A DNA stretch of 64,000 bases from Streptomyces klenkii (GTDB lineage Bacteria; Actinomycetota; Actinomycetes; Streptomycetales; Streptomycetaceae): assembly GCF_003626645.1 (NCBI RefSeq), contig NZ_RBAM01000001.1, positions 620,001 to 684,000 on the forward strand. The letters are read 5' to 3'. The position numbers and the translations under genes are program-made. The notes under the pieces are model-generated. The model was given only the letters and a program-made list of their open reading frames with translations. It was not told where the DNA came from and searched no databases. Below are positions 11,667 to 56,539 of the stretch, in pieces. The stretch's first letter is position 1. The number at the start of each line of letters is the position of its first letter.

Positions 11667-11875
11667 ACCCGTTCGACGACACCGACGCGACGTTCCTCGT
11701 CCTGACCAACGCGGAGGGCCAGCACTCGCTCTGGCCCGCCTTCGCCGAGGTTCCCGCCGGCTGGACCGTGGCGTTCGGCGAGGACACCCACGCGGCCTGC
11801 GTGGAGCACATCGAGGCGAACTGGACCGACATGCGGCCCAAGAGCCTCGCCGAGCTGACGGACGCGCAGTGCTGA
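11663..11875 (+). CDS. mbtH: MbtH-like NRPS accessory protein
   Basis: A 70-residue protein starting at GTG 11663, which overlaps the NRPS stop (GTGA) and is preceded by AAGGAG. It carries the full MbtH signature: N-x-E-x-Q-x-S-x-W-P ([10 protein letters not shown]), PAGW, and WTDMRPKSL near the C-terminus with the conserved Trp residues. MbtH proteins bind adenylation domains and are often needed for their solubility or activity, so the likely partners are A1 and/or A2 of the adjacent NRPS. Its last codons overlap the start of the following SbnA-like gene, so NRPS, MbtH and SbnA-like genes form one translationally coupled unit. Confidence 0.96.
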
Positions 11876-12873
11876 CCGCGGAACCCGGCATCCTGTCGAC
11901 GATAGGCGCGACGCCTCTGGTCGAACTCGTCAGGCTCTTCCCGGACAGCCCCATCCGCGTGTTCGCCAAGCTCGAAGGGTTCAACCCGGCGGGCAGCATC
12001 AAGGACCGGCCCGCCCTGAGCATGCTGGAGGACCGCATCCGCCGCGGCGACCTCGTGCCCGGCGAGTCGGTGGTCGTGGAGTCCAGCTCCGGCAACCTCG
12101 GCATCGGCCTCGCACAGGTCTGCCGTTACTACGGCCTACGGTTCATCTGCGTCGTCGACCCCAGGGCCAACAAGCAGAACATCGACATCATGCGCGCCCT
12201 CGGCGCCGAGGTGGAGATGGTGACCGAACCCGACCGGGAGACCGGCGACTACCTCCCTGCCCGCGTGGCCCGCGTACGCGAGCTGGCCCGGACCGTCCCC
12301 GGCGCCTACTGGCCCGACCAGTACGGCAACACCCTCAACGCCCTCGCGCACCGGACCACGATGCGGGAGATCCACGAGGCGCTGCCCGGCGGCCTGGACT
12401 ACCTGATCTGCTCGGCGAGCTCCTGCGGCACCCTCCGCGGGTGCGCGGAGTACATCCGCGCGCACAGGCTGCCCGTGAAGATCGTGGCCGTGGACGCGCT
12501 GGGCAGCGCCATCTTCGACCCCAGCCCGCCCGCGGTCTCCCGGCTCCTGCCCGGGCACGGGGCCGCGACCCGGCCCCCGCTGCACGCACCCGACCTGGCC
12601 GACACGGTCGTCCACGTCGGCGACCTCGACTGTGTCACCGGCTGCCGCCGGCTGGCCGCGACCGAGGCGATCCTCGCCGGGGGCTCCTCCGGCGCGGTCG
12701 TCAGCGCCCTCGACAGCCTGCGCCACGCCATCCCGGACGGCTCCACCTGCGCGATCGTCCTGCCCGACCGCGGCGAGCGCTACCTCAGCACGATCTACAA
12801 CGACGCCTGGGTCTTGGAGAACTTCGGCCGGATCCCCCGGCCGCACGCGGTTCAGGAGAGCCAGTCGGCGTAG
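11869..12873 (+). CDS. sbnA: SbnA-like PLP-dependent N-(2-amino-2-carboxyethyl)-L-glutamate synthase (cysteine synthase fold)
   Basis: A 334-residue fold-type II PLP enzyme; GTG 11869 overlaps the MbtH stop. Visible motifs are NPAGSIKDRPA (Schiff-base Lys45), the SSSGNLGIGLA phosphate/substrate loop, and the C-terminal GGSSGA. Family knowledge: the SIKDRPA form and length of about 330 aa fit the SbnA/ZmaU/VioB-type group better than housekeeping cysteine synthase. SbnA condenses O-phospho-L-serine with glutamate, and SbnB, an ornithine-cyclodeaminase-like dehydrogenase, then yields L-2,3-diaminopropionate (DAP). No SbnB is present in this window; it could lie upstream. The position inside the NRPS operon suggests it supplies an unusual building block, and the acidic A1 pocket would suit DAP or a relative. 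A cysteine-synthase-like role with another nucleophile cannot be excluded. The 3' end overlaps the convergent reductase gene by 22 bp. Confidence 0.85.
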   Translation: MLTAEPGILSTIGATPLVELVRLFPDSPIRVFAKLEGFNPAGSIKDRPALSMLEDRIRRGDLVPGESVVVESSSGNLGIGLAQVCRYYGLRFICVVDPRANKQNIDIMRALGAEVEMVTEPDRETGDYLPARVARVRELARTVPGAYWPDQYGNTLNALAHRTTMREIHEALPGGLDYLICSASSCGTLRGCAEYIRAHRLPVKIVAVDALGSAIFDPSPPAVSRLLPGHGAATRPPLHAPDLADTVVHVGDLDCVTGCRRLAATEAILAGGSSGAVVSALDSLRHAIPDGSTCAIVLPDRGERYLSTIYNDAWVLENFGRIPRPHAVQESQSA

Positions 12874-13580
12874 CGGGTGGGGGCGAGGTGGGCGTTCTTG
12901 TCAGTGAGGACGTCCCCCTTGACGGCGGCGAACATGCCGGCGGTGGGATCGGTGACGACGGTGCGGCCGTCGGACTTGTGGGACAGGGTGATCCGGCCCA
13001 GCTCGTCCAGGGTGAAGACCTCGGGTCCGCCGATGTTGCGGATGCCCCCCAGCGGGGCACCCGCGGCGACTTCCGCCACCGCGTCGGCCACGTCCTTGGC
13101 GGCGATCGGCTGGATCGGCGTGGGAGGCAGCCGGACGGTGTCGCCGTCGGTGGTCCAGGACATGGTCGCGTCCATGAATTCCATGAACTGCGTCGCGCGG
13201 ACGATCGAGTAAGGGATCGCTCCGGCCGCGAGGATGTCCTCCTGGAGCACCTTGGCCTTGTAGTAGTCCAGCTCGGGGACCTTGTCCACGCCGACGATCG
13301 AGAGGATGACGAAGTGCCGGATACCACCCTTCCGGCCCGCGGCCAGAAGATTGTCCATCGAGGTCTGGAAGAAGGCGAGGGAGTCTTTGTCGAAGGTGGG
13401 GGAGTTCGTCAGGTTCACGAGGACGTCGGCCCCCGCCACCGCCTCGTCCAGCCCCTTGCCGGTGATGACGTCGACTCCGGTGGACTGTGAATGGGGTACC
13501 GCCTCGTGCCCGGCGGCGTTCAGGCTTTTGACGACCTGCGACCCGATGAGCCCGGTACCGCCGATGACCGCGAATTTCAT
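12852..13580 (-). CDS. NmrA-like / atypical SDR NAD(P)-binding reductase
   Basis: A 242-residue protein with an N-terminal GGTGLIGSQV dinucleotide-binding loop directly after MKFAVI, and the (Y)YKAKVLQE stretch and RATQFMEFMD segment usual in atypical (NmrA/YbjT-like) SDR proteins. ATG 13580 has GGAAGG upstream. It is the last gene of the - strand set and overlaps the convergent sbnA-like gene by 22 bp, so there is no room for an ordinary terminator between them. A 146-bp gap with several inverted repeats separates it from the aminotransferase, so it may have its own promoter and may not belong to the pathway. Substrate unknown: members include redox sensors, quinone reductases and NADPH-dependent tailoring reductases. 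Confidence 0.85.
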   Translation of the reverse strand: MKFAVIGGTGLIGSQVVKSLNAAGHEAVPHSQSTGVDVITGKGLDEAVAGADVLVNLTNSPTFDKDSLAFFQTSMDNLLAAGRKGGIRHFVILSIVGVDKVPELDYYKAKVLQEDILAAGAIPYSIVRATQFMEFMDATMSWTTDGDTVRLPPTPIQPIAAKDVADAVAEVAAGAPLGGIRNIGGPEVFTLDELGRITLSHKSDGRTVVTDPTAGMFAAVKGDVLTDKNAHLAPTRYADWLS

Positions 13581-13726
13581 GACACGCCTTCCGCAGGTGC
13601 GGGCGTCTGGTCAGTGGCCGACTGGAGCGGTCGGCCGCAATAGGGTTATAGCAGGCCCTCGATTCCGCACGTCCGGAACCGGACACCTACGTGTCGGACG
13701 TGCGCACCCACGCTGATGTCGCGGCT
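13581..13726. promoter_or_regulatory. Inverted-repeat-rich gap upstream of the NmrA-like gene
   Basis: This 146-bp gap between the aminotransferase stop and the NmrA-like start holds a perfect 7-bp inverted repeat at 13616-13636 (GGCCGAC / GTCGGCC, 7-nt loop), another at 13671-13684 (GTCCGG-AA-CCGGAC), and GACAC-CTAC-GTGTC at 13681-13694. The first could act as a terminator-like hairpin after the aminotransferase gene, though no T-tract is visible. The set could also be an operator region for the NmrA-like gene. Function is inferred only from symmetry. Confidence 0.35.
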
Positions 13727-15046
13727 TCAGCGTCGATTCCTCACCTTGCGCTGTCCGCTCTTGCGGACCGCGGTCACCACGTGGTCGACGAGCCGTTCCT
13801 CTTCCCCGCTGCTCAGGCACGCGGGCGGTGCGAGCATGACCGTGCCGCCCTGCTGCCGCGTGTACGCCCCGAGGTCGTACACCGTCTGCTGGACGTTCCC
13901 GGCGGTGTCGGCGCTGTCCAGCTCGACGCTCACCGCGAGCCCCTGCCCGCGAACGTCGAGCACACCGTCCGCGCCCCGCAGCTCCCGGCCGAGCACGCTC
14001 AGCAGCCTGGCGCCGATGTCGCGAGCCTCGGCAACGGCCCCGGTCGCGCGCATGTGCTCCAGCGTCGCGCTCGCCGCCGCGCAGGCCGCGGGCGAGGCCG
14101 ACATCGTGTGCCCGTAGGACACGATGCTCCCGGAGGGAAGCCGTTCGAGCACCCCGTTGTCCACCGCGACCGCGGACAGCGCGCACACGCCGTTGGTCAA
14201 ACCCTTGCTGAAGGCCGTCAGGTCAGGGCGTACGCCCTCGTGCTCGTGCGCGAACCACGCCCCGGTCCTGCCGAGGCCGGTGAACACCTCGTCCAGCACC
14301 AGCAGCGCCCCGTACTCGTCGCAGATCCGGCGGATGTCACCGAGCAGCCCTTCGGGCAGCCGGATGCCGCCACCGACGTTCAGGAGCGGCTCGACGAGCA
14401 CCGTGCCCGCGTGCGAATCCGCCAGGATCGCCCGCAGCTGCCCGGCGATGTGCCGGCGCGCCTGCTGCGACCGCAGCCCCTCGCCGGTGAACTCGCCGAA
14501 CGTCAGGTGATGGACGCCCGCCCCGCACCGGTCCGGTGTGCTGCTGGTCTGCGGCAGGCCGGACAGCGACTGGCACAGCGCGGTGGAGCCGTGGTAGCCG
14601 CGCTCGAAGGTGACGATGTCCTGCCGCCGGCTGCCGGCGGCAGGGCCGGCCGCGGCCCAGTACAGCGACGCGATCTTGACGGCGAGTTCGACCGCCTCCG
14701 AACCGCTGTTGGCGAAGAAGAACCGCTCGCCGTCGCGTCGCCGGGCGGCCCGCAGCCGGTCCGCCAGCAGGTGCGCGGGCCGGGCGAGTCCCTGGGACAT
14801 GTCGATGTGAGCCAGTTCCCGCAGCTGCGACAGGTAGGCGTCCAGGACCGGCTCCACGCCGTGACCGCAGAGCACGTTCAGCGCGCCCGATGTCGCGTCG
14901 ATCACCCGGTGCCCGCCGCTGTCGACCAGCCACGAGCCTCGTCCGGATACGAACACCGGGCCGGAGTGGTCGTGGGGCGCCCGCCAGGGACGCCCGAGAG
15001 CCGAAGCCGCCCCTTCCGTCCCTTCCTTGGAATCCCTGGAATCCAT
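13727..15046 (-). CDS. Class III PLP-dependent aminotransferase
   Basis: A 439-residue protein of usual length for the family. Visible signatures are ANSGSEAVELAVKIA (PLP phosphate site), the GYHGST loop, DEVFTGLGRTG (Asp contacting the pyridine N), and AFSKGLTNG with the Schiff-base Lys. The ATG start has GAGGAG about 10 nt upstream. The family covers ornithine-, DABA-, beta-alanine- and adenosylmethionine-8-amino-7-oxononanoate-type omega-transaminases, so it may place a terminal amine on a tailored intermediate or make an amino-acid precursor. It lies 75 bp downstream of the dioxygenase gene in the same direction and presumably belongs to the operon. The first dozen codons are low-complexity (Asp/Ser/Lys/Glu/Gly), encoded by a short GGAATCC-type repeat, so the true N-terminus could lie slightly further in. 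Substrate is not predictable from sequence alone. Confidence 0.92.
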   Translation of the reverse strand: MDSRDSKEGTEGAASALGRPWRAPHDHSGPVFVSGRGSWLVDSGGHRVIDATSGALNVLCGHGVEPVLDAYLSQLRELAHIDMSQGLARPAHLLADRLRAARRRDGERFFFANSGSEAVELAVKIASLYWAAAGPAAGSRRQDIVTFERGYHGSTALCQSLSGLPQTSSTPDRCGAGVHHLTFGEFTGEGLRSQQARRHIAGQLRAILADSHAGTVLVEPLLNVGGGIRLPEGLLGDIRRICDEYGALLVLDEVFTGLGRTGAWFAHEHEGVRPDLTAFSKGLTNGVCALSAVAVDNGVLERLPSGSIVSYGHTMSASPAACAAASATLEHMRATGAVAEARDIGARLLSVLGRELRGADGVLDVRGQGLAVSVELDSADTAGNVQQTVYDLGAYTRQQGGTVMLAPPACLSSGEEERLVDHVVTAVRKSGQRKVRNRR

Positions 15047-15103
15047 CGTCGCCCAGCTCCTCTTCTCGAACCATGCCCACGGGTCGAAGGGAGCGTGCTC
15101 CCC

Positions 15104-15139
15104 TCATGGAGTGATCTCCGGTCATGGAGTGAGCTCCGG
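15104..15139. repeat. 18-bp imperfect tandem duplication at the dioxygenase 3' end
   Basis: Two adjacent 18-bp copies (15104-15121 and 15122-15139) differ at a single base. The second copy contains the dioxygenase stop codon and last codons; the first lies just beyond it and provides a duplicate stop-containing tail. It looks like a small slippage duplication. Confidence 0.7.
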
Positions 15140-15952
15140 CGCGTTGATGTGCAGGCTGCGCAGGAGCAGACGCGGGTGCCTGGGGTCGTCGGTGAAGTCC
15201 TCCCTGGAGTGGGCCAGCACGTCGTTGCGGAAGATCAGGCACTCGCCCGCCCGGAGCAGCAGATCGACGCGGACGTCCGGGTCGGCCCGGCGGTCCCTGA
15301 AGTACCGCAGTGCGCGATCGAGCGCCGCCCGTTCCGCCGCGTCCCCCGGATACCAGTGCTCGACCTGTCCCTCGCCGTACCGGGTGGCGTAGTTGCCGTC
15401 CCCCAGGCCGGCGAACACGGGCCCGACAGCCTCGCGTTCCACGCCGGGCAGCGTCGAGCGTCTGCCGAGGATCGTGCCCCGCAGCAGGACGTCGGCCGCC
15501 TCGGGATCCTCCGTCCGCAGCTCGCCGAATACGCGTCCGGTGTTGAGCAGCGACGTCCTGCCGCCCCGGCGTGCCGGGGACACGCAGTACAGCAGGGTCG
15601 TCCTGATGGTCCCGATGTCCTCAAGGAGCCCGTCCGTATGCCAGCCCTGTGCCGCGCACGTGTGGAAGACCGGATGGTCCGAGTCCCCCTTCCGGGTCAC
15701 CTCGGTGACGCTCGGGGCGTCCCGGTCGCGGTAGAGCAGCGGGACGTAGGGCTCCCCGAGACCGAAGTCGGCGCGGATCGTGCCCATTTCCCGGTGGGCT
15801 TCCGCCTTCGACACGGTCGTCAAGGGGCTCCGCGTCACCGCGAAGCCGAACGTCTCCAGCACGTCCAGCGTCTCACCGGGCTTCAGCAGATCGGTCACGT
15901 ATCCGCGGCCGGGCGGGGTGAGCTCCGCGTAACTCGACTTCGTCAGTTGCAT
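15122..15952 (-). CDS. TauD/TfdA-family Fe(II)/2-oxoglutarate-dependent dioxygenase
   Basis: A 276-residue protein starting at ATG 15952 (MQLTKSSYAEL). An in-frame ATG 24 nt further upstream would overlap the preceding gene and is less likely; the chosen start leaves a 13-bp gap containing ACGAGG. The iron-binding facial triad is visible as WHTDG (HxD) and a distal His in LAHSREDF, followed by the Arg-containing PRHPRLLLRSLHI strand expected to bind 2-oxoglutarate. The closest described style is the clavaminate-synthase-like/TauD group acting on amino acids or carrier-bound acyl chains (hydroxylation, desaturation, cyclisation). Its place between the ketoreductase and aminotransferase of the cyclopropane-type set suggests oxidative tailoring, possibly producing a carbonyl or hydroxyl for later amination. 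The actual substrate is not visible. Confidence 0.88.
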   Translation of the reverse strand: MQLTKSSYAELTPPGRGYVTDLLKPGETLDVLETFGFAVTRSPLTTVSKAEAHREMGTIRADFGLGEPYVPLLYRDRDAPSVTEVTRKGDSDHPVFHTCAAQGWHTDGLLEDIGTIRTTLLYCVSPARRGGRTSLLNTGRVFGELRTEDPEAADVLLRGTILGRRSTLPGVEREAVGPVFAGLGDGNYATRYGEGQVEHWYPGDAAERAALDRALRYFRDRRADPDVRVDLLLRAGECLIFRNDVLAHSREDFTDDPRHPRLLLRSLHINAPELTP

Positions 15953-15965
15953 GCCTCGTGCCCAG

Positions 15966-16730
15966 TCACAGGACAAGTCCTCCGGATATTTCGATCACCT
16001 GACCGGTGATGTAGCGCGCGCGGTCCGAGGCGAGAAAGCACACCAGTGCCGCGACGTCGTCGGCCGAGCCGAACTCCTGGGTGGGGATCATCGATTTCAG
16101 GCGGTCGGCGTGCTGCTCGGGGATCGCGGCCGTCATATCCGTGTGGATGAACCCGGGAGCGACGGCGTTGACGGTGACGCCGAGGCCGCCGACCTCCTTC
16201 GCCAGTGCCTTCGTGAAGCCGATGATCCCGGATTTGGAGGCCGAATAGGCCGTCTGGCCGGGTGCGCCGTGGATGCCGGAGGCGGAGGTGATGTTGATGA
16301 CGGTTCCGTTCCGCTGCTTCACCAGCGGCATCACGAGCGGCCTGGTGACGTTGAACATGCTGCCGAGGTTGGTGTCGATCACCTCGTCCCACTGCTCCCG
16401 GCGCATCCGGGCGAAGCTGATGTCCCGGGTGATGCCGGCGTTGTTGACCAGGACGTCCAGGCCTCCGCCCAGGGACTTCAGCGCCTCGGCCGCGAACTTC
16501 TCCGCCCCCGCGCCGTCGGACACCTCGCCCGGCAGCGCCGTGCACCGCTGCTCGGGGTAGGCGGTGCGCAGTTCGTCGCGGAGCGCTTCCGCCCGGTCGG
16601 AGCTGTGGTGGTAGCCGAAGGCCACGTCGGCGCCCTGTGCCAGCACCATCCGCACTACCGCGGCGCCGATGCCGCGCGAGCCGCCGGTCACGACGCACTT
16701 CCGGCCGCTCAGTGGAAGGGCGTCAGCCAT
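15966..16730 (-). CDS. Stand-alone SDR ketoreductase (FabG/Jaw6-like)
   Basis: A 254-residue classical SDR with TGGSRGIG (residues 15-22), NNAG, an ITSASG Ser segment and the catalytic YSASK, ending in EISGGLVL. Length and motifs are those of 3-oxoacyl-ACP reductases. The ATG overlaps the end of the radical SAM gene by 8 bp, and AAGGAG precedes it, so the two are coupled. The KS-AT-DH-ACP PKS encoded two genes upstream lacks a KR domain, so this protein is the natural candidate to reduce its beta-ketoacyl intermediates in trans before the DH acts. As I recall it, jawsamycin biosynthesis uses the same arrangement (Jaw6 with Jaw4). General FabG activity remains possible. Confidence 0.92.
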   Translation of the reverse strand: MADALPLSGRKCVVTGGSRGIGAAVVRMVLAQGADVAFGYHHSSDRAEALRDELRTAYPEQRCTALPGEVSDGAGAEKFAAEALKSLGGGLDVLVNNAGITRDISFARMRREQWDEVIDTNLGSMFNVTRPLVMPLVKQRNGTVINITSASGIHGAPGQTAYSASKSGIIGFTKALAKEVGGLGVTVNAVAPGFIHTDMTAAIPEQHADRLKSMIPTQEFGSADDVAALVCFLASDRARYITGQVIEISGGLVL

Positions 16731-18159
16731 GCTCCGCTCCTTCGTCGTCGACCAGCACCAGTCCGGCCTTCTTGGCGTGGGCCTCCCGCTCGCGGAGGGC
16801 GCGGTAGCGCTCCTCGGCCAGCAGCGCGGAGACCAGCGGCGTGTAGAACGGGCCGTCGCCGACGAGCCTGATCCGGTCCGGCTCGATCTCCGCGAGGTCG
16901 CGCTCGGCCAGCGCGTCCCAGATCGTGGCGAACTCCTCGTACACGTCGACGTTCATGGCCCGGCGGATTCCGGCCCGGTCGATCTCCATGCTGAGCAGCT
17001 TGCGGAAGAGCGTGGCCAGGAGCCAGTCCGCGGGCTGGTGCCGGAAACCCCGCTCGATGGGGAACCGTCCCTCGTCGATCGCCTTCTTGTACAGCGCCAG
17101 GTTGCGCTGGTTGATGAAGGACCAGGAGCGGCCGTCACCGAGCGAGGCGTCGCCGAAGAAGGAGACCGCGGCGTACCCCAGGCCGACGGCGTCGGAGGTG
17201 TCCCTGGTGGTCTCCGGGCGGTAGCCCTCGCGGAAGAGACGTGTGGTGGGGTCGCCGGGCTTGCGGAAGCTGTAGGCCCCGTGCTGCTCGTACCCCCGGT
17301 CGAGGAGGAAGTCGCGCGCCTCCCGGTACATCTCCAGGTTGCTCAGGGTGCTGGGGAGTTCGTGGAAGCGGTTGAGCGCGAAGTCGGTCGGGCCGCCCAC
17401 GTTCAGCTCGTAGTGGGTGATGTCGTGGACCTCCCAGGAGACCAGGGTCTCCAGGTCCTCCAGCATGGTCTCCACGGTCTGCCGGGGCCAGCCGAAGATC
17501 ACGTCCACATTGGCCGCCAGGCCGAATTCACGTGCCCATTCCAGGCTCTGGACGACGTGCCGGGTGGTCTGCTTGCGCCCGCTCAGACTGTTGAGCCGTT
17601 CGTTGACCTGCTGCACGCCCATGCTGATCCGGTTCATCCCGGAGTCGCGGATCGCCTGCATCTTGTCCCGGGTGAACAGCTGGGGGATGCCTTCGAGCGT
17701 CACGTCGGCGGCCGGTGAGATGTCCGGGAAGAAGCTCCGGACCAGGTCCATGATCTTGTGGTACATGTGCGGCCGGTACAGGTTCGAGGTGCCTCCGCCG
17801 AAGTACGCCGTGGTGAGGACGGAGCCCTCCCAGCGTTCCCGGTAGAGCTCCGCCTCGCGTTCGACGTACCCGTAGTAGTCCTCCAGTGCGTCGTTGCCCC
17901 GGAACTCCTCCACCGGGAACAGGCAGTACCCGCACTTTCCGGGGGTCGTCTTGATGCAGTACGGGACGCCGATGTAGAGGTAGACGCCCGCCTGACGGCC
18001 GTCTTTTTGCAGCCGGCGGCGGTCCTCGGTGATCTCGTCCATGGGCACCGTCAGCTCGTTCCAGTACCGGGGTGACGGGAAGCCGTGCTGGACCTTGTTG
18101 ACCTGCCGTTCTTCGAGATGGGTGTCGAGGTATTCCTTGACGAATGCGGAATCCAGCAT
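16723..18159 (-). CDS. HemN-like radical SAM protein, candidate polyketide cyclopropanase (Jaw5-like)
   Basis: A 478-residue protein with the HemN/HemW layout: an N-terminal radical SAM barrel containing YFGGGTSN, GVQQVNERLNSLSGR and NVDVIFGWPRQT, plus a C-terminal HemN-type region. The cluster-binding cysteines are Cys68, Cys76 and Cys79 in GVPYCIKTTPGKCGYC, a C-X7-C-X2-C spacing rather than the canonical C-X3-C-X2-C. The start has GGAAGGG upstream. The gene lies 58 bp after the KR-less PKS and overlaps the ketoreductase. This PKS / radical SAM / KR order is that of the jawsamycin chain-building enzymes, where the HemN-like protein installs cyclopropanes on the growing acyl chain using SAM. 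A housekeeping coproporphyrinogen oxidase is unlikely given the context and divergent Cys motif. The cyclopropanase role is inferred. Confidence 0.85.
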   Translation of the reverse strand: MLDSAFVKEYLDTHLEERQVNKVQHGFPSPRYWNELTVPMDEITEDRRRLQKDGRQAGVYLYIGVPYCIKTTPGKCGYCLFPVEEFRGNDALEDYYGYVEREAELYRERWEGSVLTTAYFGGGTSNLYRPHMYHKIMDLVRSFFPDISPAADVTLEGIPQLFTRDKMQAIRDSGMNRISMGVQQVNERLNSLSGRKQTTRHVVQSLEWAREFGLAANVDVIFGWPRQTVETMLEDLETLVSWEVHDITHYELNVGGPTDFALNRFHELPSTLSNLEMYREARDFLLDRGYEQHGAYSFRKPGDPTTRLFREGYRPETTRDTSDAVGLGYAAVSFFGDASLGDGRSWSFINQRNLALYKKAIDEGRFPIERGFRHQPADWLLATLFRKLLSMEIDRAGIRRAMNVDVYEEFATIWDALAERDLAEIEPDRIRLVGDGPFYTPLVSALLAEERYRALREREAHAKKAGLVLVDDEGAEHG

Positions 18160-18217
18160 GAGGCGGGCCCTTCCGTGCCGTCGGATTCTGCTGTGTGATC
18201 GGTGGGCGGTGTCCCGT

Positions 18218-21200
18218 TCAGGCGGGCGTGGGTGCGGGCGCGCCCGCGGGCCCCTGGTCCGCCGGGTCGAGGGCCAGCACCCGGTTGAGGAGGAAGTCGG
18301 CCAGGTCCTCGATGGTCTGGTAGTCGAGGGCCTCCATCGCCCTGAAGCGGAATTCGAGCTTTTCCTGGATGCGCCGCTGCAAGTCCGTGACCTTCAGCGA
18401 GTCGAGACCGATCTCCAGCAGCGCGAGCGAGGGGTCGATTCCGTCCCCTTCGAACTCCAGCTCGGCCGAGGCCCTGCCGAGGGTCGCCTGCACCTCCTGG
18501 ACGATCCACCGGGTGACCGCCTGCCGCCGCTCCTCGTGGGGGAGCGGCGCGAGCTCGTCCAGGAGTTCCTGGCGGGACCGGCCGATCCGGTGACGGTTCT
18601 CCTCAGTGTCGGGTTCGGTGCTGCCCGCGCCGCCGGCCAGCGAGCCGGCGTGCCGGTACTCGACGCCCTCCAGCTCGGCGACGACGTTCCCCTCGTCGTC
18701 CGTGACCAGCAGGTCGACGACGAACGCGGTACGGGAGTCGAGCGGGCGCCGCCGCACCTGAGCCCAGATCTGGCGGGGCAGTTGCCCGGCCAGCGTCATG
18801 TGCCGGATCGAGGCCGGGAGGTATCCCCCCGGCGGCAGTCCGGCGTCGGCCGCGAGGAAGAGGGCCGCGGCCAGCTGGAGGCAGCCGTCGAGCGTCGTCG
18901 CCGACCGGTGGGCGTGCCCCTCGGCGGGCGCGCCGTCGGGGACGACGGTGATCCGGGCGAGGGCTTCCTCCCGGTCCGGCGTCGCGACCCACAGTTCCCG
19001 GACGGTGGAGAAGTGGTACCCGTGCTCCAGGCCGTCGTCCCGCAGCTTGCCGTACAGCTTCGCGGGGGCGACCGGGGTGGGAATCTCCGCGCGCAGTGCC
19101 TCGGGGAGCCTTCCGCCCTGCGCGACTCCGCCTCCGTCCCCGGCGCCGCGGACGGCCCTGATCGTGCCGTGGCAGTGCTCGGCCCACCGGGCCCCCGCAC
19201 CCGCCCCGGCGCTGCCGGCGATCGCGAAGCGCCTGGCACCCTTCGCTTCCGGTCCGGCGTCCGTCAAGGTGACCCGGGCCACGGACTTCCCGCCGCGTAC
19301 GAGGACGAAGGGGCGGGTGAAGCCGACGTCGGTCAGCTCCACCGGCACGCTGCCGCCCCCGGCTCCGGCCTCGGCGTGGGCGCGGACGGCCAGCTCCAGA
19401 TAGCCGGTGGCCGGGAAGACGGTCGCCCCGTGCACCCGGTGGTCGGACCACGGCGCGGCGGTGGTCAGCTGCTCTTCGTGGACGTGGGCGCGGGCGGACG
19501 GCTCGGGCCCGGGGGAGGGGACTACGGGCGCGGGGACTACCGGTGCGGGGACCACAGGGGCGGATACGGCAGGAGCCGGGTTCGCGGACACCGGGTCCGC
19601 GGATGCCGGGCTTGCGGGCGCACTCTCCGATGCCTCGGTCCACCAGTACCGGTCCTTGCGGAAGGGGTACTGCGGCGCGGCCGAGGTCCGCCGGTACCGC
19701 GCGCCCCGGTAGAGCTGGGCGAGGTCGAGACCGGCGCCGGAGGTGAACAGTGCGCCCGCTGTCGTGAGCAGGCGCCGTACGTCGCGCCGGTCCTGGTCCA
19801 GGGTCGGGAGCGCGGTCACGCCCGCCGCGCCGAACGCCTCTGCGACGTGCCGGATCAGGGCGGAGTGCGGTCCGACCTCGACGACTACGGTGCAGCCCGC
19901 GTCGACGACCGTACGCACGGCGTCGTGGAACCGTACAGGCTCCCGCGCCTGGGCCGCCCAGTACTCCGGCCCCTCGTCGCCGGTCAGGCGCCGGCCGGTG
20001 ACGCTGGAGATCACGGGCACGGGCGCGGTACCGGACGCGGTCGAGGGGTTCGGCTCGAACGCGGCGGCGCACTTGTGCAGCTCGGGCAGGACCGGGTCCA
20101 TCAGGTGCGAGTGGAAGGCGTGGGACGTGCGCAGCCACGCGGTCTCGACCCGCGCCTTCTCGGCCAGCGCCGCGATTTCGTCCACCACCTCGGCCGTGCC
20201 GGAGACGACGACGTTCCGCGGGCCGTTCACCGCGGCGATCCCCACCGCGTCCTCCCGGCCGGCCAGCCAGCTCCGTACGGTCTCCTGATCGGTGCTGACC
20301 GCCAGCATCCTTCCCTTGCGCGGAAGTTCACTCATGAGCCGCCCGCGCAGCACGCTGAACCGGGCCGCGTCCTCCAGCGTCAGCAGGCCGCCCGCACAGG
20401 CGGCGACGACCTCGCCGATGCTGTGCCCGGTGACGGCGGCCGGCTCGACGCCCCAGGAGCGCAGCAGCGCGGCGAGGGCGTACTCGACGGCGAACAGCGC
20501 CGGCTGGGCGAAGCGGGTGTCGTGGATCTCCCGCGCGGCGTCCTCGTCGAAGAGCAGCCGGCACAGCGGGACGTCCAGCTCTTCGTCCATCACCTCCGCG
20601 CACCGGTCGACCGCCGCGGCGAACACCGGCTCCTGTTCGTACAGTTCACGGGCCATGCCCGGGTACTGCGTGCCCTGTCCGGAGAAGACGAAGGCCACCT
20701 TGACGGCCTTCCTGGCCCGTCCGGTGGAGACCGAGCCGGGGGCGCGGCCGGTCTGCCACTGCCGCAGGCTGTTGGCCAGCTCGCTGCCGCTGCGACCGGT
20801 CACCGCCAGCCGGTGGCGCATCGAGGCCCGGCCGACGGCAGCGGTGAACACCGCCTCGGGGAGGGCCTGCCGCCTGGTTCGGGAGAGGAAGTCCGCCCAG
20901 CGGCCGGCGAGCTCACGCAGGCTCTCCGGCGACTTCGCGGACAGCGTCAACAGCTCGTCGGAGCGTCGTACGGCCTCCGGGGCGTCCTGAGCGGGCCGGG
21001 AGGGCGGCGCCTCCCGGAGCACCGCGTGGGCGTTGGTGCCGCTGTAGCCGAAGGAGTTGACGGCGGCCAGCCGGGAGACCTCACCACGGGGCCAGTCCAC
21101 CGGCTCGTCGGGGATCTCGACCGGGACACCGGTCAGGTCGATCTGCGGGTTGAGCCGGTCCAGGTGAATGCTGGGATAGATGGTCTCCCGGTCCAGGGAC

Positions 21201-22297
21201 AGCGCAGCCCTGACCACTCCGAGCAGGCCGGCGCCCGCCTCGATGTGGCCCACGTTGCTCTTACCGGAACTGACGTACAGCGGCTGCCCGGCGGAGTGGG
21301 CGGCACCGTAGGTCCTGGCGATGGCGTCCATCTCGATCGGGTCACCGACCGGCGTGCCGGTGCCGTGCGCCTCCACGTACCCGACCTGCGCCGGATCGAC
21401 GCCCGCGGCGGCCAGTGCGGTACGGATCACCCGCTGCTGGCTGCGGCCGTCGGGCGCGGTCAGCGTCCTGGAACGGCCGGTGTGGTTGATCGCGGTGCCC
21501 ACCACACTGGCCAGGATCGGGCTGCCGTCCGCCTCGGCCAGCGACTGGCGCTTCAGCAGCGCCGCCACGCAGCCTTCGCTGCGCACGTAGCCGTCGGCGC
21601 CCGCGTCGAACGTGCGGCACCGGCCGCCGCGCGAGAAGAGGCCCAGCTTGCCGAACGAGATGTGCACGTTGGGCGCCAGGATCGCGTTGGCCCCGGCCAC
21701 GATGGCGGCGTCGCACTCGCCGGTGAGGATGGACTGCCGGGCCAGGTGGATGGCGACCAGCGATCCGGAGCAGGCCGTGTCCACGCTCACGCACGGCCCC
21801 TCCAGGCCGAGGAAGTGCGCGATCCGGCCCGCGCTGACGCTGTTGGCGTCGCTCATCGCCTCGTACGCGGTGATGGCCTCGGGGCCGGCCTTGACCTTGA
21901 GGGTGACGTAGTCGTGGCCCATCAGGGCGAGGAAGACGCCGGTGTTGGTCCCCGCCAGTTCGTCGGGATTCTGCCCGGCGTTCTCCAGGGCGTGCCACAC
22001 CGTCTGGAGCAGCATGCGCTGCTGCGGGTCCATGTAGGCGGCTTCCATGTCCGAGATCCCGAAGAACCCCGCGTCGAACCGGTCGATGTCGTCCACGAAA
22101 CCGCCGTGCCGGACGTAGGTCCGGCCGGCCGCGAGCGGGTCGGGGTGGTAGTACTCGTCCACGTCCCACCGGTCCCGCGGGATCTCACGGATGCAGTCGC
22201 GGCCCTCCTCGAAGACGGCGCGTGCCTCGTCCAGATTGTGCACGCCTCCGGGGAGCGTGCAGCCGACCCCGACGACAGCAATGGGTTCCGTTTCCAA
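18218..22297 (-). CDS. Single-module type I PKS, KS-AT-DH-ACP without KR (iterative Jaw4-like candidate), 1359 aa
   Basis: The start chosen is TTG 22297, with AAGGAG 8-9 nt upstream and the protein entering the KS almost at once (ETEPIAVVGVGC). A longer ATG frame exists, but its extra 32 residues are Arg-rich and unlike a PKS. Domains (residues): KS about 1-430 with DTACSGSL (Cys176) and the His motifs EAHGTGT and GHIEAG; AT about 536-832 with GHSIGE (Ser626) and SHAFH, predicting malonyl-CoA; DH about 940-1215 with HRVHGATVFP and DGCLQ, both catalytic motifs intact; ACP about 1270-1330 with GLDSL (Ser1300). There is no KR, ER or TE. One module that can dehydrate but not reduce implies iterative use with a trans-acting KR, encoded two genes downstream. 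With the radical SAM protein this predicts a polyene or polycyclopropane acyl chain. The DH-ACP linker and the Ala/Pro/Val/Ser-rich stretch before the DH are low complexity. Confidence 0.93.
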   Translation of the reverse strand: METEPIAVVGVGCTLPGGVHNLDEARAVFEEGRDCIREIPRDRWDVDEYYHPDPLAAGRTYVRHGGFVDDIDRFDAGFFGISDMEAAYMDPQQRMLLQTVWHALENAGQNPDELAGTNTGVFLALMGHDYVTLKVKAGPEAITAYEAMSDANSVSAGRIAHFLGLEGPCVSVDTACSGSLVAIHLARQSILTGECDAAIVAGANAILAPNVHISFGKLGLFSRGGRCRTFDAGADGYVRSEGCVAALLKRQSLAEADGSPILASVVGTAINHTGRSRTLTAPDGRSQQRVIRTALAAAGVDPAQVGYVEAHGTGTPVGDPIEMDAIARTYGAAHSAGQPLYVSSGKSNVGHIEAGAGLLGVVRAALSLDRETIYPSIHLDRLNPQIDLTGVPVEIPDEPVDWPRGEVSRLAAVNSFGYSGTNAHAVLREAPPSRPAQDAPEAVRRSDELLTLSAKSPESLRELAGRWADFLSRTRRQALPEAVFTAAVGRASMRHRLAVTGRSGSELANSLRQWQTGRAPGSVSTGRARKAVKVAFVFSGQGTQYPGMARELYEQEPVFAAAVDRCAEVMDEELDVPLCRLLFDEDAAREIHDTRFAQPALFAVEYALAALLRSWGVEPAAVTGHSIGEVVAACAGGLLTLEDAARFSVLRGRLMSELPRKGRMLAVSTDQETVRSWLAGREDAVGIAAVNGPRNVVVSGTAEVVDEIAALAEKARVETAWLRTSHAFHSHLMDPVLPELHKCAAAFEPNPSTASGTAPVPVISSVTGRRLTGDEGPEYWAAQAREPVRFHDAVRTVVDAGCTVVVEVGPHSALIRHVAEAFGAAGVTALPTLDQDRRDVRRLLTTAGALFTSGAGLDLAQLYRGARYRRTSAAPQYPFRKDRYWWTEASESAPASPASADPVSANPAPAVSAPVVPAPVVPAPVVPSPGPEPSARAHVHEEQLTTAAPWSDHRVHGATVFPATGYLELAVRAHAEAGAGGGSVPVELTDVGFTRPFVLVRGGKSVARVTLTDAGPEAKGARRFAIAGSAGAGAGARWAEHCHGTIRAVRGAGDGGGVAQGGRLPEALRAEIPTPVAPAKLYGKLRDDGLEHGYHFSTVRELWVATPDREEALARITVVPDGAPAEGHAHRSATTLDGCLQLAAALFLAADAGLPPGGYLPASIRHMTLAGQLPRQIWAQVRRRPLDSRTAFVVDLLVTDDEGNVVAELEGVEYRHAGSLAGGAGSTEPDTEENRHRIGRSRQELLDELAPLPHEERRQAVTRWIVQEVQATLGRASAELEFEGDGIDPSLALLEIGLDSLKVTDLQRRIQEKLEFRFRAMEALDYQTIEDLADFLLNRVLALDPADQGPAGAPAPTPA

Positions 22298-22338
22298 GGG
22301 GATGCTCCTTCGGTGATTCCGGCGGGTCCGGCGACGCC

Positions 22339-22357
22339 GATGACGCCTTACGTCATC
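22339..22357. promoter_or_regulatory. Perfect 7-bp inverted repeat upstream of the iterative PKS gene
   Basis: GATGACG-CCTTA-CGTCATC is a perfect dyad with 7-bp arms and a 5-nt spacer. It ends about 42 bp upstream of the TTG start of the KS-AT-DH-ACP PKS, inside the 181-bp gap after the AraC gene. Position and symmetry fit a regulator-binding site for the operon promoter. The binding protein is unknown; AraC proteins usually prefer direct repeats, so another dimeric regulator is as likely. Confidence 0.45.
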
Positions 22358-22460
22358 TCCTCCTGCGGGATGAATGCGGCCGAGGCTGTCCATAGCGAAC
22401 GAGCAGCACGCTTCCCGGCCAGGGCCTGATTTTTCCGGCCATCGCGGGCCGCGTCATTGC

Positions 22461-22478
22461 CCAGGTGCGACCACCTGG
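22461..22478. terminator. Inverted repeat immediately after the AraC stop
   Basis: CCAGGT-GCGACC-ACCTGG lies directly beyond the AraC-family stop codon (22479-22481, - strand). It has 6-bp perfect arms and a 6-nt loop, with no T-tract. It could be a weak terminator or mRNA-end hairpin for the regulator gene, or an operator. Called only on symmetry and position. Confidence 0.35.
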
Positions 22479-23468
22479 TTAGCTGGTCGCGCCCCGGCGG
22501 AGCCGCTCGTCGCGGAACCTGCCCGGCGGCAGCCCGTACCTGGCACGGAACGCCCGGCTGAAGTCGGAGGGCTGGGCGAAGCCGTTGCGCAGGCCGATCT
22601 CGCGGATGGGCACCGATCGCAGCTCCACGTCGCAGAGTTCCCGCCGGCAGCTCTCCAGCCTCCGCTGGCGTATCCAGTCCGACGGCGTACCGCCTTCCTC
22701 CTTGAACAGCCGTTGCAGGTGGCGGATCGAGACGTGGTGCACCGAAGCGACCAGGCTCGGCGTGAGGCCGGGATCGGCGAGGTTGCGGTCGATGAATCCG
22801 CGCATGCGCGTCATCAGCTCGTGCTGCTGGGCCGGCGGTCCCGCCTCCCCGACGTCGGAGAAGTGCCGTTCGAGCACCGCTGCGGCCAGTTGCAGGGCGG
22901 CGTCGCCGAACCGGGCCGCCTCCGGCGCGCGCAGCCCCGGCGCCCGGGTGGCCGCTTCGACGAGGAACCGGCGGAGCAGCGCTCCCGAGGCCGCGGCGTC
23001 GCGCACCTCGTACGGCGGCTCGCCCGCACCCGGCAGGACCGTCGGCACCGCCGACCCCGGGAAGACCATCACGACGGCCTCGGCCACCTGGTTCCTCGCC
23101 CCCGGGCCGATGCCCAACGGGAGCCGGGTGTCGCACAGCGCCGCCGCCTCGTCCCGGACGACGAGCTCGCGCTCGGCCCGCGCGACCCTTATCGCGCCGA
23201 GCGCACTCAGCACGAGGGCGTGCTGACCCGGGCCGGCCTCCAGCGTGTGCGGACCGGAGCCGGCCGCGCGGAACTCGACCCGGTACGCCGTGACGCTGCC
23301 CAGCTCGGTGGTGTGCAGGACCGGATAGACGCCGCGGAACGGCGGGTTCTGATGTACGGGCCCACCCGTGAGCTGCACCTGTGCGTACACGGTCCCGCTC
23401 GCCGGCCGCCTGTTTCCGCAGCGGACCCGGTCGTCTAACGGCATCTCCTTGCTGCTTCGCCTCGACAT
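22479..23468 (-). CDS. AraC-family transcriptional regulator
   Basis: A 329-residue protein. The C-terminal third (about residues 215-325) has the two helix-turn-helix elements of the AraC/XylS DNA-binding domain: VHHVSIRHLQRLFKEEGG-type first HTH, and IREIGLRNGFAQPSDFSRAFRARYG, the signature of the second. The N-terminal part resembles the AraC-binding-like sensor domain that precedes such HTHs. ATG 23468 has GGGGAG about 10 nt upstream. It is upstream of, and co-directional with, the KS-AT-DH-ACP PKS operon, 181 bp away, which suggests a pathway-specific regulator of the cyclopropane-type genes. The inducer is unknown. Confidence 0.93.
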   Translation of the reverse strand: MSRRSSKEMPLDDRVRCGNRRPASGTVYAQVQLTGGPVHQNPPFRGVYPVLHTTELGSVTAYRVEFRAAGSGPHTLEAGPGQHALVLSALGAIRVARAERELVVRDEAAALCDTRLPLGIGPGARNQVAEAVVMVFPGSAVPTVLPGAGEPPYEVRDAAASGALLRRFLVEAATRAPGLRAPEAARFGDAALQLAAAVLERHFSDVGEAGPPAQQHELMTRMRGFIDRNLADPGLTPSLVASVHHVSIRHLQRLFKEEGGTPSDWIRQRRLESCRRELCDVELRSVPIREIGLRNGFAQPSDFSRAFRARYGLPPGRFRDERLRRGATS

Positions 23469-23581
23469 CGGAGATCTCCCCGCTTCAGCAGATACGTCGG
23501 TTCGTCAGTCCGATCGCCGGGCAGGCCTCGGCAAAGTCGTGTGAGATTGTCCCGAGGAATGGTGATGGGCCTGCGCGGCCA

Positions 23582-23608
23582 TCCTGGTTTCCCTGGTTTC
23601 CCTGGCTT
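23582..23608. repeat. Three 9-bp tandem repeats (YCCTGGYTT type)
   Basis: Three successive 9-mers, TCCTGGTTT, CCCTGGTTT and CCCTGGCTT, lie in the non-coding gap. A related patch follows about 200 bp later. No function is evident; it looks like slippage-generated low-complexity DNA. Confidence 0.6.
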
Positions 23609-23787
23609 CCTGAGCTACAGCCTCATAGTCAGCGTGAGTATGCAGCCGTCGCGCCGGAACGGACAGGGCGCAGCCGTACCGGAACCCCGGCGCCCTGCAT
23701 GCGACCTCTTCGGATGGATGCGCTGCCACCTGCGGGAACCCGCGTGCCTCCTCGGTGCATCCCTCAACTATCCCACGGTGAAACGGC

Positions 23788-23814
23788 CTTCCCGGTCTTC
23801 CCGGTATTCCGGGG
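23788..23814. repeat. 9-bp tandem repeats (CTTCCCGGT x2 plus a degenerate copy)
   Basis: CTTCCCGGT occurs twice in tandem, followed by ATTCCGGGG. The 9-bp period is the same as in the patch at 23582-23608, but the unit differs. Both are in the gap between the AraC and GNAT genes. Confidence 0.55.
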
Positions 23815-24069
23815 GATGAAGTGAACTCGCGGTGGCGGAGTTCCCGCTGATGACGGAAGAAGGGCCCATGGCGTGGGGCGCGCGGATTTCCAGGGCGGCG
23901 CCACCGACCGGTTCCGGCGAAACACCGCTGTCATTACCAGGGCGCGACCGATCACATGGCCCCTCGCGACGAGCTGTGCAAGGCAGCCGGAACGCAGGTG
24001 GATTTCCGAGGCACTATCGGGTCGCGACCGGTCCGGGTGAGGACGCGGTGGTCAGCGGAGGGAGACACA

Positions 24070-24780
24070 GTGACCGGAGACCAGGTGACCGGAGGCACGG
24101 CGGCCCGCGACGTGGAAGCGTCCGAGGATTTCGACGAGATCGCCGACATCCTGACCGACGCGTTCCGCGACACCCCGGTGACCAGCTGGATGGTCCCGCA
24201 CGGGCTCCCGCAGCGGGAGCGGTACATCACGGGCTTCATGCACGCCTGGGTACGCTTCATGGTCCAGCACGAGGGAACCGCCCTCATCTCGCCCGACCGG
24301 GACGCCGTCGTGGTCTGGGAACCGTCCGAGCGCGCCGCCCCTCTCACCGCCGAGGAGCACGAGGCGTTCCGCGCCGACATCGTCGCCGCGACCGGTCCCG
24401 TAGCCGAACGCTGCCTCACGCTCATGGACCTGGTCGACGCGCACTATCCCCCTGACCTGCCGCCCCACATCCACGGCGCGCTGGCCGCCGTCCGGCCCGG
24501 AACCACGAACCGGGGAGCCTTTCTCAGCCTCGCGGTCGCCACGCTGAAGCACATTCATCCCCGGGGGCTGGGCGTCTACTGCGAGGGCACCTCGGAGACG
24601 AGCACTGCCTTGTGGGAGCGGCTGGGAGCCAAGCCGATCGGCCCGAAGATCCGGGTCCCGCAGAGCGACATCGCACTCACACCGCTGTTCATCCACCCGG
24701 ACGACATCGCCCGTCACCCGGCGGTGTCCATGCTCCTGTCCGCTCCGACGACTCCGACAACTTCGACGACCGGGACATAG
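24070..24780 (+). CDS. GNAT-family N-acetyltransferase-like protein
   Basis: A 236-residue protein. GTG 24070 is chosen because GGAGGGAG precedes it by about 6 nt; an in-frame ATG at 23956 lacks a site and adds an unconvincing N-terminus. The central and C-terminal part has the GNAT look, with AFLSLAVATLKHIHPRGLGVYCEG (the acetyl-CoA-binding beta4/alpha3 region seems degenerate) and TSTALWERLGAKPIG, resembling the usual N-x-x-A-x-x-x-Y-x-x-x-G-F segment. It probably transfers an acyl or acetyl group to an amine. It is followed 49 bp later by the SDR/deazaflavin reductase fusion in the same direction. Whether it belongs to either cluster is unclear. Jawsamycin is amide-linked by an acyltransferase, so a role in the left cluster is conceivable but unsupported by sequence alone. 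Confidence 0.75.
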   Translation: MTGDQVTGGTAARDVEASEDFDEIADILTDAFRDTPVTSWMVPHGLPQRERYITGFMHAWVRFMVQHEGTALISPDRDAVVVWEPSERAAPLTAEEHEAFRADIVAATGPVAERCLTLMDLVDAHYPPDLPPHIHGALAAVRPGTTNRGAFLSLAVATLKHIHPRGLGVYCEGTSETSTALWERLGAKPIGPKIRVPQSDIALTPLFIHPDDIARHPAVSMLLSAPTTPTTSTTGT

Positions 24781-24829
24781 GTTCCCGTCCGGCGCACGAC
24801 ACCGCGCGGCACAACGAAAGGACGGCACC

Positions 24830-26098
24830 GTGATCCCTAGTCAGCGCAGGCCGGCAGGCGAGTCGCCGGCCGGCCGGGTGTGCCTGGTCACCGGCGGAAC
24901 TGCGGGCCTCGGCCGGCCTCTGGCCCGGGCCCTGGCCGACGCCGGCGCCCACGTGCACGTGGGCGCCGGCGTCGGCGACCACTCCGCGCCCGGTCCGGAG
25001 CGCAGCGCCGGTGACCCCGAGCGGGCACCCCAGGACACGTCGATCACGGTCACCGATGTCGACGTGACCGACCGCGCCGCCCTCGAAGCGTGGATCGCCG
25101 CCGTCCACGCCGAGCACGGGCGGATCGACGTCCTGATCCACAACGCCGTCCGCATGCATGGCGCTGCTGACGCCGAGGGGATGACCGTCGAGCAGGCGCA
25201 GTCGGCCATGCGCGCGGGATACGACGCGCTGGTCTGCTCGGTGCGGGCGGTGCTGCCGCTGATGCGCTCTGCCGGCGGAGGGCAGATCGTGGCGGTGGGG
25301 CCGGGGGAGGGGCGGATGTCCGGCGAGGGCGCTGCCGCTTCCTGCGCCGCGGTGAAGGCGGCCGTCGAGGCGTACACCGAGATGCTGCGGAGCGAACTGG
25401 CCGGATCAGGATCCGGCATAGGCGTGACCCTGGTGCGGACGGACACGGCCGGCAACGGCTTCCGGATGCCCCGTATCGCCGACTTCCTTCCGTCCGTCTC
25501 ACCGGAGGAGGCCGCGGATGCCGTCGTCCACGCGATCCGGCACCGCCGTCCGTCCGTCGACGTACCCGGCTCCCTGACCCTGCTCCACCGGGGCTTCAAG
25601 GTCGCTGCGGCCGGCGTGGCGAAGTGCGAGGGCCTCGCACTGCGGGCCATCAAGAAGGCCGATGCGAACACCTACTTCCTGCGTGCCATGTCCACCATCG
25701 CACCGAGCGTCGATCGCGCCGCCCACCGCTTGACCGGCGGCCGGGTGCTCGTCATGCCCGCCTTGCTGCCGTCCCTGATGCTCACCACGACCGGCAGCGT
25801 CAGCGGCCGGCCCCGCCAGGTTCCGCTGCTGTGCCACCCCGAAGCCGACGGCAGCTACCTCATCGTCGCCAGCAACTCGGGCAAACCCCACCACCCCGCG
25901 TGGTCCCGGAACCTCCTCACCACCCCCCAGGCGGCCATCACGCGCTTCGGGCGCACCGTCAAGGTGACCGCCACCCTCCTCGACGGTTCCGAGCGAACCG
26001 CCGCATGGGACCACATGGTGAAGTTCTGGCCCCCGTACGAGGGTTACGCCCGCAGTTCCGGCCGCAACCTGCGGATCTTCCGCCTGGCCCCCGCCTGA
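24830..26098 (+). CDS. Fusion: SDR-like domain + deazaflavin (F420)-dependent nitroreductase/quinone-reductase domain
   Basis: A 422-residue protein from GTG 24830, with AAAGGA upstream. Residues about 17-250 are an SDR with TGGTAGLG (21-28) and an HNA motif. The catalytic YxxxK is replaced by Cys172-x-x-x-Lys176 (SCAAVKAA), so classical SDR chemistry is doubtful. Residues about 295-422 match the DDN/F420H2-dependent reductase family: LMLTTTGSVSGRPR followed by PLL, VASNSGKPHHPAWSRNLL, and a closing WPPYEGYARSSGRN-type tail. Family knowledge: DDN-type proteins use F420H2 to reduce quinones or enones. Joining the two in one chain is uncommon; the SDR half may now act as a scaffold or in NAD(P) binding. 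I see no frameshift, and the linker (about 245-295) reads as normal coding sequence. Role and substrate unknown. Confidence 0.85.
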   Translation: MIPSQRRPAGESPAGRVCLVTGGTAGLGRPLARALADAGAHVHVGAGVGDHSAPGPERSAGDPERAPQDTSITVTDVDVTDRAALEAWIAAVHAEHGRIDVLIHNAVRMHGAADAEGMTVEQAQSAMRAGYDALVCSVRAVLPLMRSAGGGQIVAVGPGEGRMSGEGAAASCAAVKAAVEAYTEMLRSELAGSGSGIGVTLVRTDTAGNGFRMPRIADFLPSVSPEEAADAVVHAIRHRRPSVDVPGSLTLLHRGFKVAAAGVAKCEGLALRAIKKADANTYFLRAMSTIAPSVDRAAHRLTGGRVLVMPALLPSLMLTTTGSVSGRPRQVPLLCHPEADGSYLIVASNSGKPHHPAWSRNLLTTPQAAITRFGRTVKVTATLLDGSERTAAWDHMVKFWPPYEGYARSSGRNLRIFRLAPA

Positions 26099-26126
26099 AT
26101 CAGCGACCGCGGCGCGCGGGAGGACG

Positions 26127-26474
26127 TCAGCGGTGGCCCAGCACGTTGACCACCCGGCCATTGGGATCGCGGACGAAGAACCGCCGCACGCCCCACTCCT
26201 CGTCCTGGAGGGGGTGAACGATCTCCGCGCCGCTGTCCCGCACGGCCGCATAGGCCGCGTCCACGTCGTCCACCTCGACACTCATGTCGGGGACGACCGG
26301 CGCGGTCTTGTCGCCGGCAATGAAGCTGACCTGCGCCGCCGGACTGGACGGCGAGGCGAGCGTCATGACCCAGCCGTGGTTCATGACCTCTTCGAAGCCC
26401 AGCAGGCCGTAGAACTCCCGGCTCTCCTGCGCGGCCTCCGACCGGACATTGGGCACGACACGGCGAACGGCCAT
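26127..26474 (-). CDS. VOC-family (glyoxalase/bleomycin-resistance-like) protein
   Basis: A 115-residue single-domain protein with the beta-alpha-beta-beta-beta repeat typical of the vicinal oxygen chelate fold: VVPNVRSEAAQESREFYGLLGFEEV at the start, VEVDDVDAAYAAVRDSGAEIVHPL in the middle, and RRFFVRDPNGRVVNVLGH at the end. The ATG has GGAGG upstream. It converges with the fusion reductase (28-bp gap) and is divergent from the GDP-mannose dehydratase. VOC proteins include drug-binding resistance proteins and small-molecule isomerases or dioxygenases. Nothing here fixes the role, and a housekeeping function is equally likely. Confidence 0.88.
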   Translation of the reverse strand: MAVRRVVPNVRSEAAQESREFYGLLGFEEVMNHGWVMTLASPSSPAAQVSFIAGDKTAPVVPDMSVEVDDVDAAYAAVRDSGAEIVHPLQDEEWGVRRFFVRDPNGRVVNVLGHR

Positions 26475-26583
26475 CGGTCCTCCAGGTGAAGCGGGCCTGC
26501 CTCCGAGACCCTCCAGGAGTACTACGGCGCACCCGTCATTGCACGCACTTCGAGCCGGCGGCTCCGCGGTTCGCGGGCGAAGA

Positions 26584-26599
26584 CTCGGAAATTCCGTAG
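26584..26599. promoter_or_regulatory. PimM-type (PAS-LuxR) operator candidate
   Basis: CTCGGAAATTCCGTAG matches 14 of 16 positions of the published PimM binding consensus CTVGGGAWWTCCCBAG as I recall it. The two mismatches are symmetric (GGG to GGA, CCC to CCG), so the dyad is kept. It ends about 90 bp upstream of the GDP-mannose dehydratase start, in the 215-bp gap divergent from the VOC gene, where an activator of the polyene operon would be expected. PimM-type regulators activate polyene macrolide genes; none is encoded within this window. Confidence 0.65.
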
Positions 26600-26689
26600 C
26601 CCGCTCCGTGATTCCGTGAGCCTGCCGACCGTTGGGTGAGGACTTGCGGCCCTCGACCGGCTTTGTCCGTGGCAGTGAAAGGGGACCGA

Positions 26690-27964: not shown

Positions 27965-56539
<28,575 letters not shown>

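Follow-up and report, generated by a model that had tools for sequence, protein, structure and literature searches.

Jawsamycin (FR-900848), an inhibitor of fungal Spt14/Gpi3, is a nucleoside amide whose amine is 5'-amino-5'-deoxy-5,6-dihydrouridine (PMC7341893). Its gene cluster (AB920328, MT553334) contains an iterative polyketide synthase (PKS), a radical S-adenosylmethionine (SAM) cyclopropanase and a ketoreductase (KR) of the polycyclopropane (POP) family and, according to Yin et al. (2026; PMC13389473), has no thioesterase (TE), while a dioxygenase of the Cpz15/LipL family has also been stated for it (PMC9814697). Yin et al. distinguish three POP clades, attribute chain length and ring number to the cyclopropanase and the PKS, and characterized the pathways of Streptomyces albireticuli NRRL B-1670, where the fuelimycin pathway releases free acids, and of S. 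longispororuber. We analyzed a 64,000-nucleotide stretch of the Streptomyces klenkii genome (NZ_RBAM01000001.1, positions 620,001 to 684,000; hereafter the window), in which eight genes at 13727–26098 very likely constitute a jawsamycin-type cluster joining a polycyclopropyl chain to a nucleoside. On this assignment the host is a soil bacterium with the gene set for a jawsamycin-type antifungal that combines three-membered carbon rings with a modified uridine, and its product would probably be jawsamycin or a closely related congener. Clusters of this kind are already known, and the value of the present one lies in its delimited gene set and in a sister amide type. The eight genes, in window coordinates, are as follows.

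13727–15046, minus strand: class III aminotransferase, LipO-like, predicted uridine-5'-aldehyde transaminase (Pfam, context, alignment)
15122–15976, minus strand: TauD-fold protein, predicted LipL/CapA/Cpz15-type alpha-ketoglutarate:uridine monophosphate (UMP) dioxygenase, start probably at 15952 (Pfam, context, alignment)
15966–16730, minus strand: stand-alone KR, Jaw6/Pfl3-type (Pfam SDR/KR)
16723–18159, minus strand: HemN-like radical SAM cyclopropanase, Jaw5/Pfl2-type, with Cx7CxxC at C68/C76/C79 (Pfam Radical_SAM, motif)
18218–22393, minus strand: iterative PKS, KS-AT-DH-ACP without KR, Jaw4/Pfl1-type; the true start may lie nearer 22297 (Pfam, motifs)
22479–23468, minus strand: AraC-family regulator of the cluster (Pfam; 70% identical in genome G454, described below)
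23956–24780, plus strand: GNAT-fold N-acyltransferase, predicted to form an amide and release the chain, start probably near 24070 (predicted fold, conservation)
24830–26098, plus strand: SDR fused to an F420H2-dependent reductase domain (Pfam domains, G454 match)

The PKS, radical SAM and KR genes are consecutive on the minus strand, the end of the radical SAM gene overlapping the start of the KR gene by eight bases. Pfam recovered KS, AT, both halves of DH and ACP in the PKS, with KR not among them, and every catalytic motif checked in the three proteins is intact (KS DTACSG/EAHGTGT/NVGHIE, AT GHSIG and HAFH, DH HRVHGATVFP and D1169, ACP GLDSL, and YSASK in the stand-alone KR). The trio was therefore correctly described in the original prediction, as was its likeness to Jaw4/Jaw5/Jaw6. 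The radical SAM protein has C68, C76 and C79, the positions given for the Jaw5 cysteines in the Cx7CxxC motif reported as invariant in POP cyclopropanases (PMC13389473). This motif is present in 21 of 21 POP rows of our alignment and in none of six more distant HemN-like homologues (27–31% identical), which have Cx3CxxC instead, and the tree separates the two sets with support of 100/100. As the separating branches are very long, we claim only the split and not its depth. On the basis of motif and tree together we reject a HemN/HemW reading of the protein. A grouping of the radical SAM protein with HemW/HemN or another tailoring clade, or of the PKS with a KR-independent family of known different product, had been named beforehand as the outcome that would speak against a jawsamycin-like trio, and neither grouping was found.

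A scan of GTDB contigs yielded 19 loci outside the window's genome, among them those of S. albireticuli NRRL B-1670 and S. longispororuber, with flanks of up to 10 kb (shorter for L026, L028, L030, L036, and L040). A PKS is present in 18 of these loci, an adjoining KR in 17, and all three genes together in 17, the exceptions being L039, which lacks the KR, and L040, with neither PKS nor KR near its radical SAM gene. Such recurrence is not due to chance, and based on its sequences the trio is a member of the POP family. Within the genus the cyclopropanase is rare, occurring at E ≤ 1e-60 in 6 of 392 genomes including that of the window. The fuelimycin genes pfl1–4 (L025) have the same order, and their PKS, cyclopropanase and KR are 62, 71 and 69% identical to those of the window. 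They differ in including an acyl-CoA-thioesterase-type (hotdog) TE of their own (Pfam), and no relative of the TauD protein, class III aminotransferase or GNAT was found in the 10-kb flanks (tblastn, 1e-8). The S. longispororuber log cluster (L032) has a trio with 57, 69 and 64% identity to that of the window, but falls outside the window clade and has a TE-family gene adjoining its KR. Because the fuelimycin and S. longispororuber clades are thus represented by other loci, we infer by elimination that the window clade is the jawsamycin clade among the three set out by Yin et al.

The TauD-fold protein and the class III aminotransferase next to the trio look like a nucleoside pair of the LipL/LipO type, judging from the contexts of their relatives and from alignment. 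LipL converts UMP to uridine-5'-aldehyde and LipO converts the aldehyde to 5'-amino-5'-deoxyuridine (PMC6384614, PMC4902027), and Cpz15 produces the same aldehyde from UMP in vitro (PMC9814697). The same two steps are predicted here. In contrast to the A-90289, capuramycin and caprazamycin pathways (LipL/LipO, CapA, and Cpz15), in which the products go on to GlyU, an aminoribose or a carboxamide, the amine in the window cluster would be acylated directly.

The TauD protein, like the cyclopropanase, is uncommon in the genus (5 of 392 genomes at E ≤ 1e-25, its own included), and the four other hits (L052–L055) all adjoin genes typical of nucleoside-antibiotic clusters. A SHMT-type gene (Pfam) lies beside the TauD gene in L052, L053 and L054, L052 and L053 being 89% identical to each other. 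L052 also encodes three CO-dehydrogenase-type subunits; UMP dioxygenase, transaldolase and CO-dehydrogenase-type subunits are among the listed components of the capuramycin cluster (PMC6384614). The SHMT-type gene of L054 has fluorothreonine transaldolase as its best NCBIfam match, below the cut-off, and is accompanied by weak glycosyltransferase and nucleotidyltransferase matches and by a class III aminotransferase 35% identical to that of the window. The TauD gene of L055 has as neighbors a pyrimidine phosphorylase, a PKS and a class III aminotransferase that is 40% identical to that of the window. The HxD motif and the distal histidine align in all six TauD sequences compared. Given these contexts and the published chemistry of LipL, LipO, Cpz15 and jawsamycin, the earlier view that the trio sits with other genes "rather than nucleoside genes" is very probably wrong. 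The L055 row (10241–19807), in which a thioesterase-like gene and an adenylation-type enzyme were also recognized by eye, is itself a candidate aminoribosyl or nucleoside polyketide cluster.

The GNAT gene has no Pfam family above cut-off and no NCBIfam family at 0.01, and its one PDB sequence match is a weak one to a HPA2-type acetyltransferase (E 0.0005). An AlphaFold2 model built from 11 rows has a mean pLDDT of 77.5, reaching at least 90 for 154 of its 274 residues and exceeding 90 in most of the core, while a model from two rows (mean 38.6) was unusable. For the former model, Foldseek places puromycin N-acetyltransferase at the top (TM 0.82 on the target, E 4e-12). The protein may also resemble Jaw2. 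No Pfl4-kind TE was found at window positions 11001–28500, and Pfl4-type TEs are present in 12 of the 19 other POP loci (Pfam confirmed for L025).

We propose that the iterative PKS, with the trans-acting KR, would build an unsaturated chain from malonyl units, and that the radical SAM enzyme would convert selected double bonds with CH2 from SAM while the chain is being extended, giving a polycyclopropyl acyl-ACP. On a parallel branch, UMP would be oxidized by the LipL-type dioxygenase to uridine-5'-aldehyde, which the class III aminotransferase would convert into 5'-amino-5'-deoxyuridine. The F420H2-dependent domain, our candidate for reduction of the uracil C5=C6 bond, would probably reduce the uracil ring, and the GNAT-fold enzyme would join the acyl chain to the 5'-amine and so release the product, in which case no TE would be needed. 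The aminotransferase, GNAT and reductase of the window would fit the nucleoside amide of jawsamycin.

A second copy of the gene set, in another genus, delimits the cluster. A family-wide search with the GNAT protein gave hits in 43 of 394 genomes at E ≤ 1e-12, mostly at about 30% identity, with a 75–78% match in G454. There the KR is 86%, the radical SAM protein 89%, the PKS 79–80%, the TauD protein 76%, the aminotransferase 78%, the AraC regulator 70% and the F420 domain 66% identical to the window. DNA homology covers window positions 13755–24751 with gaps, together with 25666–26098 (the F420 domain), and it is this extent that sets the borders; the copy thereby helps to define the jawsamycin-type gene set. 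Three flanking genes, an NmrA-like SDR (12852–13580), a glyoxalase (26127–26456) and a GDP-mannose dehydratase (26690–27727), were rejected as members, since tblastn at 1e-6 matched none of them in the stretch taken from G454. The POP genes have a G+C content of 0.71, against 0.753 to their left and 0.756 in the PKS to their right. The G454 stretch also has a PapA-type acyltransferase gene (L078 1917–3209, minus strand), about 6 kb beyond the F420 gene and perhaps unrelated.

The trio had been assigned originally to the PKS–nonribosomal peptide synthetase (NRPS) on its left, with a polycyclopropanated lipopeptide as the product. The two are physically adjacent and no Pfl4-kind TE was found at 11–28.5 kb. 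The idea of a POP chain handed to the neighboring assembly line is tempting, but it is wrong in all probability, and only the slightest chance is left to it. Each half was sought without the other, and both were found apart. In 40 kb of G454 the NRPS (2622–11666) has no tblastn match at 1e-3, and that stretch contains neither an NRPS nor a modular PKS, with no other called gene above 763 amino acids. The left cluster, in turn, is found in S. eurocidicus (G341) on contig 13 with the same genes in the same order at 86–94% protein identity (best stretches), whereas the POP trio of that species is on a different contig (219 kb into contig 14). DNA homology between the window and S. eurocidicus ends at about 12847, and the next window gene is the unrelated NmrA-like one. 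Moreover, a regulator of the SARP type (BTAD, AAA), a free-standing AT, an ACP and an asparagine-synthase-type amidotransferase belong to the left cluster itself, in addition to the PKS-NRPS, NRPS, MbtH and SbnA, and its PKS-NRPS starts a chain for itself with a KS-DH-KR-ACP module; no acyl-chain entry point (starter C domain or loading ligase) was found at the start of the assembly line. The G+C step at the border also speaks against the lipopeptide. We therefore place the jawsamycin-type cluster between two unrelated clusters, retaining from the earlier interpretation the nature of the trio but neither the absence of nucleoside genes nor the partnership with the NRPS.

The left neighbor was rightly called a trans-AT PKS-NRPS, as no AT domain was found in 10 slices of the protein and a free-standing AT lies upstream. 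It spans G000 C1 598109 to window position 12873. In S. eurocidicus SbnA is followed by SbnB (TIGR03944). The window SbnA (11869–12873) has no SbnB after it, and homology breaks at about 12847–13580, a pattern suggestive of an insertion or rearrangement with loss of that gene; elsewhere in the genome of the window, the closest relatives of SbnB reach 44–45% identity. To the right (window 26690–64000; L015, L045, L046) is a large cis-AT modular PKS gene accompanied by genes for GDP-mannose dehydratase, P450s, a DegT-type aminotransferase and a glycosyltransferase, a make-up that looks like that of a polyene macrolide cluster. Both the left peptide and the right macrolide clusters look unrelated to the POP cluster.

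Several points count against a jawsamycin-type nucleoside amide. The published jaw cluster (AB920328, MT553334) was compared with the window by its published description, and no list of its nucleoside genes was found in the literature searched. Support for the nucleoside roles comes from context and from 28–41% identity, LipL, LipO, CapA and Cpz15 having likewise been compared by description. A PDB sequence search with the TauD protein alone gave no match at 1e-3, and a five-row dioxygenase profile matched solely general TauD-type hydroxylases, results that neither support nor oppose UMP as the substrate. In G454 nothing matches the SDR portion of the fusion, and the reductase gene is at the opposite end of the cluster. 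Finally, the GNAT could be a self-resistance acetyltransferase, like the puromycin resistance enzyme that is its best fold match. In that case the TauD protein and aminotransferase might act on the polyketide, hydroxylating or aminating its tail, and the product would be a free or aminated polycyclopropyl acid. We regard this as improbable, since the relatives of both enzymes occur in nucleoside-type contexts, two sister clusters link the GNAT to a decarboxylase (see below), and no Pfl4-type TE is near.

Within the jawsamycin-type assignment, it is also conceivable, if rather unlikely, that the product is a congener, for example with the uracil not reduced or with another ring count, and not jawsamycin itself. 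The different fusion and placement of the reductase in the window and G454 would allow for this, as would the dependence of chain length and ring number on the cyclopropanase and PKS, which cannot be read from the sequence here. Against it, the gene set fits jawsamycin, and so does the placement of the window clade by elimination among the clades described by Yin et al.

When the joined trios of 20 clusters are placed in a FastTree tree, the window and G454 form one pair and Actinacidiphila yanglinensis (L024) and G536 another, as sister pairs with support of 1.000, making the latter the nearest relatives of the former. All four have the GNAT (60–62% identical in L024 and G536), and among the 19 loci L024 alone has a relative of it at 1e-8. 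In L024 and G536, however, a pyridoxal phosphate (PLP) decarboxylase takes the place of the dioxygenase and aminotransferase, implying a different amine. Decarboxylase and GNAT are fused beside the POP trio in A. yanglinensis (L024 2814–4955, minus strand) and encoded by overlapping genes in G536 (L081 9675–11851, minus strand). No Pfl4-type TE was found in the L024 stretch. The presence of the GNAT in all four clusters, and of the Pfl4-type TE elsewhere, suggests release as an amide with exchangeable amines. We tentatively propose, at somewhat less than even odds, that the four clusters are one clade in which the shared GNAT releases the chain and the amine module is exchangeable, being either a UMP dioxygenase with an aminotransferase (a nucleoside amide, its dihydrouracil formed by the F420H2-dependent enzyme) or an amino-acid decarboxylase (a simple amine amide, such as the isobutylamide U-106305 or one with an aromatic amine).

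The predicted product of the decarboxylase arm is a polycyclopropyl amide of a decarboxylated amino acid. U-106305 is an isobutylamide, and this arm is possibly a U-106305-type cluster and perhaps the first one assigned to such compounds, none for U-106305 having been found in the literature searched. Naming valine as the substrate, and with it U-106305 as the product, is guesswork, because diaminobutyrate and aspartate decarboxylases head the NCBIfam matches of the decarboxylase, and aromatic amino acid decarboxylases its PDB matches. The amide clade would offer enzymes with which polycyclopropyl chains could be coupled to other amines and a testable candidate route to U-106305-like compounds.

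Two further loci depart from the standard trio. L039 (2–11443), from the alphaproteobacterial metagenome-assembled genome Rhodobacter sp. MAG MO_135.B1, encodes a POP PKS and cyclopropanase with no KR beside the PKS, and also a second POP-like radical SAM protein, divergent from the first set, with a stand-alone ACP, a GNAT, a KAS III and a condensation domain; it is the nearest approach we saw to a locus combining POP genes with a condensation domain. L040 has a POP-like radical SAM gene (9651–11383, 46% identical) with no POP PKS within the stretch examined, preceded by a gene whose small product groups by clustering with the L039 stand-alone ACP, and the locus perhaps makes a different cyclopropanated product.

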